Assembly: GCA_020343595.1 (NCBI GenBank)
Contig: CP070802.1
Span: 749,228 to 792,935, forward strand
Source of the DNA: Caldifarciminota bacterium
GTDB taxonomy: Bacteria; Hydrothermota; Tepidihabitantia; SM23-42
DNA length: 43,708 nucleotides
Direction: 5' to 3'
Part shown: positions 13,904-16,951 of the stretch, piece after piece
Layout: the number at the start of each line of letters is the position of its first letter
How positions within the stretch are numbered: the stretch's first letter is position 1
Notes under the pieces: model-generated
Seen by the model: only the letters and a program-made list of their open reading frames with translations
What the model was told of the DNA's origin: nothing
The model's database searches: none
Position numbers and translations under genes: made by a program

Positions 13904-13932
13904 TTGACAAATTTCACCAGCAGATATATACT
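13904..13932 (+). promoter_or_regulatory. Sigma70-type promoter for the cobalamin-riboswitch transcript
   Basis: TTGACA (13904-13909), 17 nt spacer, TATACT (13927-13932). Transcription is expected at about 13938, exactly at the 5' edge of the riboswitch. Confidence 0.65.
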
Positions 13933-13937
13933 CATCT

Positions 13938-14100
13938 GGCTGGTGGATTCAAGGGAAGCGCCGTGAGAATCGGACGTGGTCGCCGCCACTGTGATTCCAT
14001 CTTTTCTGTGATCAAGGAAAGCCACTGTTACCGCAGTATTCATGTTCTGCAGGACGGGAAGGCTGATCAGAGCAGGATAAGCCAGGAGACCTATCCCCAG
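13938..14100 (+). ncRNA. Cobalamin (B12) riboswitch
   Basis: Conserved core elements appear in order: AAGGGAA, then GTGAGAATCGG, then CGCCGCCACTGTG (around 13981), a second AAGCCACTG, and the B12 box AAGCCAGGAGACCT (14079-14092), flanked by GGATA/TATCC. About 20 nt later comes the AAAGGAGG ribosome-binding site of the TonB receptor. No run of T follows, so control is more likely by blocking translation than by termination. CCTT (14111-14114) can pair with part of the ribosome-binding site. It predicts that the downstream receptor imports cobalamin or a corrinoid and is shut off when B12 is plentiful. Confidence 0.9.
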
Positions 14101-14132
14101 TCACAAATAACCTTCGGACGAAAGGAGGATGC

Positions 14133-16121
14133 ATGATATTTCTGCTTATATCCTTGCTGACTGGACAAATCATCTATGAAATGGATGAGGTCGTGGTCAC
14201 TGCGCACCGCTATCCCGCGCTCTTGAAAGACGCAGCGGTTGCGGTCATGATCATCGAACGGGAGGAAATCGACCGATTGAAACCCCTCAACCTCGGCGAG
14301 GTGCTCAACGCTGCAGCCGGCGTTGATTTCAAGGATTACGGCACGCCCGGCGGCGTGAACAGCATTTCCTTGCGCGGAGTGCCGAGCAATGGCACTCTGG
14401 TACTTGTCAATGGCCATATGCTGAATGCGGTAACCAATGGAATGGCGGATCTCAGCATGATCGATATTAATACGATCGAAAGGATCGAGGTGGTCAAGGG
14501 CCCGGTCGCAAGCCTCTACGGTGCCAATGCGCTCGGCGGGGTCGTGAACATAATCACCAAACGTGAATTGAGACGACCAGAAATCGCGATAATATTCACG
14601 CCCGCCACACCAATGCTTGATGATCCCCTGCATACAAACGATCTTTCGGTCAGACTTGGATTACCGGTAAAGGGAACACAATTTGACTTCAGCGGCAGTT
14701 ACGGGAATTCTGAAGGTTACCGGAGCAACAGTGATCTGACACGATATCACATCACCGGTTCGATAATCCACAAATCAGAGCGCGCAGAAGTAACTTCGTT
14801 TATAAACTACAGCCAGAAGGAATATGGAATTCCCGGCCCCATGCCGCTCGTGGACAGTTTGCATCCAGTACCGCAATTCGGCGACAGTACTGCAACATCA
14901 GTCTTTGACCAGGAAATTGACCGCTCGCTGCTAATGCATCTGAGTGTGGACCTGCAGATATCCGACAATATCAGATGGCACAACAAAATCCTTGGTGACC
15001 GGAAACGTACTGTATATAATACTACATACGGCGGATGGTCTGGTGATACGATAAACGAAAAATATGATTACCTGACTCACATGTTCGGTTTCAACACGAT
15101 GTTGACCGCGCGTTGGGAGAAACTTTCATTCACGCTCGGGCTGGACGCGACCTATGACACACTCCTCACCAAGACCGTATCAACTATGAATGGCGACACG
15201 AACTGGCATGCGAGTTCAAATAACGTCGGAATATGGACTGAAATGCAGGTAAACCTGAACGATATCTTGTCTGCCACGCCCAGTATCCGTTACGACCGTA
15301 ATTCTGCCTTTGGCGATTTCCTCTCACCCGCGATCGGCATTTCTTACGCGCCGACCGAAATGCTCTGGCTCAAACTTTCGGCAGGAAAAACGTATCGGGC
15401 ACCGACGTTCAATGATCTCTACTGGCCGCAATCCGGCAATCCCGACCTCAAACCAGAGCACGGCTGGGCGTATGAGATACGTGCTGAGAGTTCACCGCTG
15501 CCCAGCCTATTTGCGGCAGTCTCTTTTTTCCTGCGTACCGTGAGGGATCGAATCGCCTGGTTGCCGCAGGATAATAATTTGTGGCAGCCGCAGAATGTTA
15601 ATTATCTTGCAATACGGGGGCTTGATCTGGAATTAAAACATCAGATCGCCAACTTTCTCGAGCACACTGTCGAACTAACGTATTTGGACGCCCGGCAAAC
15701 GAACGATGAGATCGTTTATGACTATTATGATTGGATCGCAGATACCTCTCTGACGATCTATGAAGAGGTAGAGCGCCCAGCTGCCTTCACGCCGGATTTC
15801 ACCATTTCATCCGTATTGAATTTCAAATTACCAAAGGATCTTGGATTCACTATTTCCGGGCAGTATGAATCTCGAAAGGTCAATTATTACGCAAACTATG
15901 ACGCATACCCGGTCGTGTCCATGGATGAAAAGGTTCTGGATGATTACATAGTCATCAACGCCGTCGTCAACAAGCAGATTTTCAACAGAATCTCACTATC
16001 TGCCGGAATTAAGAATTTGTTCGATACCAACTATTCGCTGCAATTCGGCAATACAATGGAAGACCGTGATTACCCTATGCCGGGCAGGATGTACTTCGTT
16101 CAGTTTATCGTGAAATATTGA
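14133..16121 (+). CDS. btuB: TonB-dependent outer-membrane receptor, probably for cobalamin
   Basis: 662 residues. A short signal sequence is followed by a TonB-box-like DEVVVTAHR at about residue 20. The plug domain (about 25-145) has LGEVLNAAAGV, SISLRGVPSNGTLVLVNG and IERIEVVKGPVASLYGANAL-GGVVNIIT, all standard receptor signatures. The rest is a beta-barrel ending in FVQFIVKY with a terminal aromatic, as required for Bam insertion. AAAGGAGG (14121-14128) lies 4 nt before the ATG. The cobalamin riboswitch upstream is the main reason for naming the ligand; the protein alone would only be a TonB receptor. No btuCDF or tonB gene is in the window. The stop codon overlaps the -35 box of the rnpB promoter. 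Confidence 0.85.
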   Translation: MIFLLISLLTGQIIYEMDEVVVTAHRYPALLKDAAVAVMIIEREEIDRLKPLNLGEVLNAAAGVDFKDYGTPGGVNSISLRGVPSNGTLVLVNGHMLNAVTNGMADLSMIDINTIERIEVVKGPVASLYGANALGGVVNIITKRELRRPEIAIIFTPATPMLDDPLHTNDLSVRLGLPVKGTQFDFSGSYGNSEGYRSNSDLTRYHITGSIIHKSERAEVTSFINYSQKEYGIPGPMPLVDSLHPVPQFGDSTATSVFDQEIDRSLLMHLSVDLQISDNIRWHNKILGDRKRTVYNTTYGGWSGDTINEKYDYLTHMFGFNTMLTARWEKLSFTLGLDATYDTLLTKTVSTMNGDTNWHASSNNVGIWTEMQVNLNDILSATPSIRYDRNSAFGDFLSPAIGISYAPTEMLWLKLSAGKTYRAPTFNDLYWPQSGNPDLKPEHGWAYEIRAESSPLPSLFAAVSFFLRTVRDRIAWLPQDNNLWQPQNVNYLAIRGLDLELKHQIANFLEHTVELTYLDARQTNDEIVYDYYDWIADTSLTIYEEVERPAAFTPDFTISSVLNFKLPKDLGFTISGQYESRKVNYYANYDAYPVVSMDEKVLDDYIVINAVVNKQIFNRISLSAGIKNLFDTNYSLQFGNTMEDRDYPMPGRMYFVQFIVKY

Positions 16122-16146: not shown

Positions 16147-16231
16147 TCCCTGTGGGGTAATCGGATAGCCGCTCCACGTGAGAGGAAAGTCCGGGCTTCA
16201 CAGGGCAGGATGCTTCCTAACTGGAAGCCCC

Positions 16232-16435
16232 GCACCTTTGGTGACACATGAGATCGATAAACAGTATCTTGAAAGGAGATGCCGCCGTCCTCCAGAGAAC
16301 AGAAGACGAGGCCTGCTCTGAGAGTATTACAGGCGATCTCACAGTTGTAACCACAGGCTATGACCTTGCGTTTTGTCAAACCGTTGCATTTTTGATGAAA
16401 CCTCGATGCACAGCCTGTTGTATCACCAAAGGTGC
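16232..16435 (+). repeat. Insert copy 1 in RNase P RNA (P9 position)
   Basis: 204 nt bounded by GCACCTTTGGTG (16232-16243) and its complement CACCAAAGGTGC (16424-16435). The flanks CCCC and GGGGG extend the same helix, so the insert caps P9. Internal stems: GAGATCG/CGATCTC (16250-16256, 16334-16340), GTATCT/AGATGC (16264-16269, 16277-16282), CAGAG/CTCTG (16293-16297, 16316-16320), ACAGGCT/AGCCTGT (16353-16359, 16412-16418) and TGCAT/ATGCA (16385-16389, 16406-16410). It is homologous to copy 2. Confidence 0.85.
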
Positions 16436-16468
16436 GGGGGGAAAGTGCCACAGAAAACATACCGCCCA

Positions 16469-16671
16469 GCACCTTTGGCGGTACATGAGATCGACGCCAC
16501 GACTGCGAAGAAGAAACTTCCGCGTCCTTCAGAGAAATATGGATGAAAACCTCTCTGATGAGATTACGGGCGATCTCAATGCTGTAACTGCAGGCTTGAT
16601 GTTGTGTTGCATCAAATCGCTGGAATTTTGACAAAGCATCAATGCACAGCCTGTTGTGCCACCAAAGGTGC
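16469..16671 (+). repeat. Insert copy 2 in RNase P RNA (P12 position)
   Basis: 203 nt bounded by GCACCTTTGG (16469-16478) and CCAAAGGTGC (16662-16671); the flanks CCCA and TGGG lengthen the helix to 14 bp. It shares with copy 1 ACATGAGATCGA, CGTCCT, CAGAGAA, GGCGATCTCA, CAGGCT and ATGCACAGCCTGTTGT. Corresponding stems: GAGATCG/CGATCTC (16487-16493, 16571-16577), GCGAAG/CTTCCGC (16505-16510, 16517-16523), CAGAG/CTCTG (16530-16534, 16553-16557), GCAGGCT/AGCCTGT (16590-16596, 16648-16654), TGCAT/ATGCA (16608-16612, 16642-16646). Confidence 0.85.
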
Positions 16672-16951
16672 TGGGTAAGGGTGAAATGGCGAGGTAAGAG
16701 CTCACCGCTCTGATGGTGACATCAGAGGTCCCGTTAAATCGGGATTCTCGTCCTAATAGGACGGAATATGGCAAACCCCATCCGAAGCAAAACCAAGCAG
16801 TTCCAGTAGAGGCGGCCCGTCTCTTCTTGCCGTTAAAAGCGGTCGGGGCTGGAACGGGTAGGTTGCGCAGAACCCGGCAGTGATGCCGGGACAAGAGAAA
16901 TGGCTATCAATTACAGAACCCGGCTTATAGATTACCCCACATCTTGAACAG

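Follow-up and report, generated by a model that had tools for sequence, protein, structure and literature searches.

The RNase P RNA gene of the window

The window is a stretch of 43,708 nucleotides from a Caldifarciminota bacterium (contig CP070802.1) whose genome is assembled as one contig of 2.37 Mb. Within the window, a TonB-receptor-like gene (14133-16121) precedes the RNase P RNA gene, rnpB, and a RecJ-like gene follows it from 17038, both being named by eye. A cobalamin riboswitch (RF00174, 59.2 bits) is located at 13927-14121, just upstream of the TonB-receptor-like gene.

The preliminary description of this locus, made from the letters alone, proposed an RNase P RNA doubled in length by two homologous inserts of 204 and 203 nt that share the same terminal complement and extend two different helices. 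An alignment with RF00010 confirms this proposal. The whole model aligns on both sides of the inserts with the conserved core retained, the RNA belongs to class A, and the inserts fall in P9 and P12 as had been supposed (Table 1). At 791 nt, the gene is the longest rnpB match among 147 genomes of the phylum, most others measuring 330-440 nt. The lengths are also correct when the inserts are measured from GCACC to GGTGC (16232-16435, 204 nt, and 16469-16671, 203 nt); the spans given in Table 1 include the flanking C and G runs. The two inserts match each other across their full length (E = 2e-22), and each is bounded by a terminal inverted repeat of about 20 nt with an initial C run. The arms pair to form a terminal helix that joins the host helix and extends it. 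Compared to shuffled sequences, the folding z-scores of the two inserts are -8.3 and -6.7, and most of this signal comes from the terminal helix.

Table 1. Features of the rnpB locus, in window coordinates.
Feature	Position	Strand	Remarks
rnpB, class A RNase P RNA with two large inserts	16153..16943	+	RF00010, 201.9 bits (gathering score 100), model 1-367/367
Insert 1 at P9, putative ORF-less derivative of a palindrome-ended GIY-YIG element	16228..16439	+	RF00010 placement, sequence homology
Insert 1, left terminal inverted repeat	16228..16248	+	21-nt arms, 95% complementary
Insert 1, internal helix, 5' strand TGAGATCG	16249..16256	+	helix 2 of the five-copy alignment
Insert 1, internal helix, 3' strand CGATCTCA	16334..16341	+	aligned with the nuclease DLK-motif codons of intact elements
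Insert 1, right terminal inverted repeat	16419..16439	+	
Insert 2 at P12, putative second ORF-less derivative	16465..16675	+	~70-73% identical to insert 1
Insert 2, left terminal inverted repeat	16465..16485	+	21-nt arms, 90% complementary
Insert 2, internal helix, 5' strand TGAGATCG	16486..16493	+	
Insert 2, internal helix, 3' strand CGATCTCA	16571..16578	+	
Insert 2, right terminal inverted repeat	16655..16675	+	

The genome has a single rnpB match and encodes rnpA, and no match to a HARP-type protein (PF08745, PIN_5) was found in any genome of the family. Together, these observations suggest that the insert-bearing RNA is probably the working RNase P RNA of the organism. The window genome contains no further copy of the 211-nt insert, and a pattern search found no solo CCCGCACC/GGTGCGGG hairpins elsewhere in it; thus, the element is not generally active. 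Among 100 relatives, copies of the insert were found only in the congeners G017 and G019 and never outside rnpB.

A further insert in the same gene follows P14 (16730-16768) and takes the form of a double hairpin, CCCGTTAAATCGGG-ATTCTCGTCCTAATAGGACGGAAT. The pattern is present once in the window genome and twice in G007, where both copies are in rnpB (P13 and P14). It is absent from the other genomes of the family, and two unrelated-looking matches were found elsewhere in the phylum. The double hairpin may be considered another module duplicated between RNase P helices, one for which no ORF-bearing relative is known.

Inserts in the rnpB genes of family relatives

Inserts of the window kind are present in 8 of the 21 rnpB-bearing genomes of the family, and the occupied helices differ from one to the next. 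The window genome (G000) has them at P9 and P12, G017 at P12, and G019 at P12 and on a hairpin on the 3' side of P17. In G020, inserts at P9, P12 and the P17-side hairpin are partly deleted. The remaining four genomes retain a nuclease ORF in various states: intact at P12 in G004 and at P9 in G012, truncated at P12 in G006, and, in G008, which has inserts at P9 and P12, broken at P9 by a stop and a frameshift. Three congeners (G014, G015 and G018) have no inserts; their P9 and P12 are short hairpins, several of which are of the GCACC/GGTGC type.

In a tree of the copies, the P12 inserts of G000 and G017 group together (88%), as do the P12 and P17-side inserts of G019 (88%). The tree therefore implies that, within a lineage, one or more copies moved from one helix to another. 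The inserts diverge far faster than the gene that carries them, with identities of 58-73% compared to approximately 95% for the rnpB backbone.

Three other observations concern rnpB genes in this class. On contig 16 of G008 (L030), rnpB lacks everything between P2/P3 and P12 and is joined via an intact GIY-YIG element; either the sequence is chimeric or two copies of the element have recombined. An unrelated P9 insert, GCACCTTTCAATTYCTTCCTCTCCCTTGATGGGAGAGG...GTAGGTGC, is common to three members of one genus (L010 in G010, L014 in G009 and L018 in G011). In another family of the class (L065, G061), an rnpB of approximately 650 nt has palindrome-ended inserts at P12 (CAGCACTTATG...CATAAGTGCTG) and P19 (CCAGCACCTATGCTC...CATAGGTGCTGG) together with a GCACC-type hairpin at P18.

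The ORF-bearing GIY-YIG element

In relatives, the intact element is approximately 295-305 nt in length and consists of a terminal inverted repeat of about 20 nt and an ORF for a GIY-YIG nuclease of about 80 amino acids. ORF-bearing elements occupy P3, P9, P12 and the P17-side hairpin of rnpB. The GIY-YIG gene is the only ORF within them, and no DDE or HUH transposase was found in the element. Intact ORFs of some 80-86 amino acids begin with MYYVYILKKYGGSEIYIGYTSDLKRRFKEHN in the G004 P12 element and MFYVYVIRSKKDKEFYIGCTNDLKRRFAEHN in the G012 P9 element; a third is on contig 16 of G008, in the apparently chimeric rnpB. The intact ORFs match Pfam GIY-YIG (PF01541) with E-values of 2e-11 to 4e-18. 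Among five of them, pN/pS is approximately 0.2-0.4, with pS near saturation, which indicates that the nuclease ORF is under purifying selection.

The window genome also contains a relative with an open frame outside rnpB (C1:2075049-2075285). This copy has a perfect inverted repeat of 23 nt, CGTCCCGCACCTTTCGGGGTATA, and its ends match those of the rnpB inserts. In both G019 and G008, the counterpart of this copy immediately follows a tRNA-Ser gene on its 3' side; in the window genome, the sequence just upstream of the copy is masked.

Relationship of the ORF-less inserts to the element

On sequence grounds, the window inserts are homologues of the ORF-bearing GIY-YIG elements from which the ORF has been lost. 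Three short motifs are shared by most ORF-bearing and ORF-less members of the window-type subfamily at similar positions: TGAGATY starting at +22/+23, RATCTCA at +105 to +110, and CAGCCT at 28-29 nt from the 3' end. When the interiors of five ORF-less copies were used as a profile with the internal stem kept, the P12 inserts of G004 and G008 and the P17-side insert of G020 scored above approximately 3,200 Markov decoys. In the converse search, the 211-nt interiors were shortened by 22 nt at either end, so that the terminal sequences and a portion of the internal helix were absent, and were compared to a profile of ORF-bearing interiors; the match was not significant. The homology therefore rests on the ends, the spacing of the motifs and the intermediate forms together.

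A trace of the coding sequence can be read by eye in the residual frame of the window-type copies, which has VLQR...ITGDL where intact elements have ILKK...YTSDL. This frame has a pN/pS of 0.8-1.2, so coding constraint has been lost. An open frame of 127 amino acids at 16248-16631 was considered as a hidden protein; it lies in the same residual frame and was set aside as a remnant. Since the window copies are ORF-less, whereas relatives at the same helices encode the nuclease, they are classed as derivatives and not as autonomous members.

Fold of the ORF-less form

The five ORF-less copies, 211-212 nt in length and drawn from three congeners, were analysed for a common fold. This may be described as a terminal helix, an internal helix of 8 bp and a long hairpin, with 91% of cells paired in the five-copy structure. 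The covariation score of 0.246 exceeds the 0.186 obtained with shuffles (1 of 500 as high) and the 0.05-0.11 of slid versions; with five related sequences, it is supportive of a common fold but not conclusive. Within the internal helix TGAGATCG/CGATCTCA, 15 of 16 columns are invariant, compared to 39 of 154 elsewhere in the interior (P = 9e-8). Relative to shuffles, the 211-nt interiors without an ORF are more stably folded (z = -1.1 to -2.2), which is not the case for most ORF-bearing interiors. A compact fold thus seems to have been kept after the ORF was lost, and the ORF-less copies may have acquired a structural role.

Relatives beyond the family

Across 84,980 species genomes, a scan found 391 relatives; the 80 best were taken for analysis. 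Most of these 80 have near-perfect terminal repeats that begin with a C run, while in some the repeats are weak or absent. Related elements occur in the Candidate Phyla Radiation (CPR) and in several other phyla. Among the best 80 of 391, rnpB is the host at P3 (L105, L129, L132 and L159) and at P12 (L085, which is the G004 element, and L153 in Planctomycetota). The same set includes elements in 23S rRNA (L101, L116, L118, L143 and L160) and in 16S rRNA (L122), and tRNA genes also host or adjoin elements. The 23S rRNA gene of L116 belongs to a cultured isolate, Desulfofundulus thermosubterraneus DSM 16057, in which expression and processing could be tested.

In L129 (Falkowbacteria) and L132 (WOR-3), an intact P3 element is accompanied in the same rnpB by short hairpins with the same terminal sequence. 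Judged by these shared ends, the two loci repeat the situation of the window independently, in an unrelated lineage. The rnpB of L159 likewise has a P3 element and a related short hairpin.

At tRNA-Ala and tRNA-Val sites, 9 nt of the tRNA 5' end (for example GGGCCGTTA) occur in duplicate, one copy on each side of the element. Junction repeats of at least 6 nt were found for 11 of 64 elements, compared to 0.6 expected from shuffles. In rnpB, the target site is itself a palindrome and no target duplication can be defined; insertion there could therefore differ from that at the tRNA sites. All counted cases are in the sense orientation with respect to the host gene (8 in rnpB, 6 in rRNA and 18 next to tRNA genes).

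Origin of the inserts

The two inserts of the window are very probably ORF-less remnants of a palindrome-ended GIY-YIG mobile element of about 0.3 kb, located within helices of rnpB. The preliminary description had offered three possibilities, namely an RNA-level mobile element, a duplicated binding domain for a protein, or a tether. Its suggestion of mobility is upheld, with the modification that the element is better seen as one of DNA, equipped with a nuclease gene, than as an RNA-level one, since the intact copies found in these helices in relatives code for a GIY-YIG protein. The binding domain and the tether are disfavored by the patchy distribution of the inserts, by the different helices that they occupy among congeners, and by their homology to ORF-bearing elements.

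A course of events may be proposed for such an element. Because its ends would pair in the transcript, insertion at the apex of a helix would simply lengthen that helix, and the core of the host RNA could fold as before. In intact copies, the nuclease is probably translated from the transcript of the host gene; the host transcript is presumed to serve as mRNA since all cases are in the sense orientation and the element is too small to hold much regulation of its own. Movement would probably proceed through a GIY-YIG cut, by way of a double-strand break and templated or end-mediated repair, and at the tRNA sites the 9-nt duplications point to a staggered break. Counting against this explanation, the UPF0213 proteins, which are among the GIY-YIG proteins of similar size, have no known role in mobility. 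Copies would have inserted at P3, P9, P12 and the P17-side hairpin of rnpB, and the ORF would later have disappeared from them, leaving the palindromic ends around a compact interior. ORF-less copies would arise by decay and deletion, ending as bare hairpins, and may have been moved in trans or by recombination. The inserts probably stay in the mature RNase P RNA.

The conservation described above could alternatively reflect a domain of the host RNA that was duplicated within rnpB for use in protein docking, as a tether, or as a stabilizing peripheral domain. We regard this as unlikely. The common fold of the five copies with its covariation, the near-invariant internal helix, and the folding of ORF-less interiors beyond shuffles where ORF-bearing interiors mostly show none are what such a domain would lead one to expect, but avoidance of misfolding alone could also keep structure. 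Furthermore, close congeners do without inserts, the helices used differ from species to species, the inserts match ORF-bearing elements in position and motifs, and they have diverged well beyond the rnpB backbone. An origin as self-splicing introns has even less to recommend it and is considered very improbable. GIY-YIG proteins are often intron-encoded homing endonucleases and one of the ORFs matches TIGR01453 weakly, below the cut-off; however, no Rfam intron family reached its gathering score in the window or any rnpB locus scanned, and the group I catalytic core (RF00028) is unmatched in the window. The terminal helix joins the host helix without splice-site architecture, and ORF-less forms are simple rods or three-way junctions. 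That the repeat is an assembly duplication or chimera, which the preliminary description had named as a reason to abandon its reading, can be given practically no credence. Nothing in the window points to it, even if the related contig 16 of G008 (L030) may be such a case; the two copies have diverged by some 30% on a single-contig genome, and equivalent inserts are present in several independent assemblies, congeners included.

A remaining question is whether the 211-nt form is a dead relic of the GIY-YIG element or a non-autonomous, MITE-like derivative still moved in trans by the nuclease of the C1:2075049 copy. The latter is a refinement of the preferred explanation and does not exclude it; we hold it to be possible but somewhat doubtful. 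Consistent with continued movement are the constant length of 211-212 nt, the conserved ends and internal helix, the occupation of different helices in sister species, and the full-length copy with matching ends in the window genome. Against this, no copies were found outside rnpB in the 100 genomes searched, the closest copies are about 30% diverged and so give no sign of a recent burst, and recombination within the gene accounts for the spread equally well.

More broadly, the remnants in the window may belong to a widespread class of minimal elements, composed of palindromic ends and a GIY-YIG gene alone, that specialize in sense-orientation insertion into the helices of structured RNAs that are essential, namely RNase P RNA and 16S and 23S rRNA, and at tRNA genes, make 9-nt duplications of the target, use the transcript of the host ribozyme as mRNA, and leave ORF-less hairpins that lengthen the host RNA. 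This generalization is put forward tentatively, at somewhat short of even chances. If true, it would describe a GIY-YIG-driven transposition system and a source of peripheral helices in RNase P RNA and rRNA.

Comparison with known systems

Insertions in CPR rRNA that contain GIY-YIG proteins and show no match to group I or group II introns have been reported (Tsurumaki et al. 2024, PMC11270868). Those insertions are sparse, occur at poorly conserved sites and were judged to be outside the context of homing; palindromes, inverted repeats, hairpins and RNase P are unmentioned in the main text of that paper (PMC11270868). The elements described here resemble them in having a small GIY-YIG ORF inside a structured-RNA gene, in a sparse and non-intron setting, and the wider family was likewise found in 16S and 23S rRNA. 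In contrast, the host in the window is RNase P RNA and not rRNA, and the organisms are bacteria of the WOR-3 group and others. Near-perfect terminal repeats, occupation of several helices per RNA, ORF-less structured copies and 9-nt tRNA duplications further distinguish the present elements. Searches of the open-access literature found nothing relevant on GIY-YIG or homing endonucleases in bacterial rnpB, on Rickettsia palindromic elements in RNase P RNA, or on terminal-repeat GIY-YIG elements at tRNAs. Within that literature, no earlier report was found of the palindromic ends, of RNase P RNA as a host, or of copies in multiple helices.

Among solved structures, the nearest relatives of the nuclease by sequence are UPF0213/YhbQ-like proteins of the same domain size (PDB: 1zg2, E = 5e-7, and 1ywl, E = 3e-5), although these entries are free-standing hypothetical proteins. 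We know of no palindromic element that hosts a protein of this type.

The intervening sequences of 23S rRNA encode the S23/IVP four-helix protein (PF05635) and are excised by RNase III without religation. They are similar to the present element as terminally paired insertions at the helix apices of a structured RNA, with an ORF that is present or lost, but the element described here encodes a GIY-YIG protein (PF01541) and resides in RNase P RNA. Rickettsia palindromic elements and bacterial MITEs are short palindrome-ended repeats that are tolerated through self-folding. The present inserts differ in having a known relative with a nuclease ORF and in occupying a catalytic RNA. The STRR repeats of cyanobacteria, reportedly described in rnpB by Vioque in 1997, also lengthen RNase P RNA with repetitive DNA; these, however, are short tandem repeats with neither a palindromic element nor an ORF.

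The peripheral helices of RNase P RNA, a textbook ribozyme, differ greatly among bacteria, with no known source of new helices. Insertion, duplication, loss of the ORF and reduction to a bare hairpin can be followed here in a single bacterial family and recur in unrelated phyla. The proposed remnants would thus offer a concrete mechanism by which essential RNAs grow, through palindromic mobile elements, and would connect RNase P RNA with the unexplained GIY-YIG insertions in CPR rRNA.

Two further groups of GIY-YIG relatives have distinct surroundings. In L043 and L054, elements with ends of the CCCTGTGTAAT/ATTACACAGGG type appear to interrupt genes for four-helix-bundle proteins, which we take to be S23/IVP-like, the protein of the classical 23S rRNA intervening sequences. 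In L154 and L156, ends that resemble integron attC sites (GCCTAAC/GTTAGGC) flank the GIY-YIG ORFs, and some relatives of this type may travel as integron cassettes.
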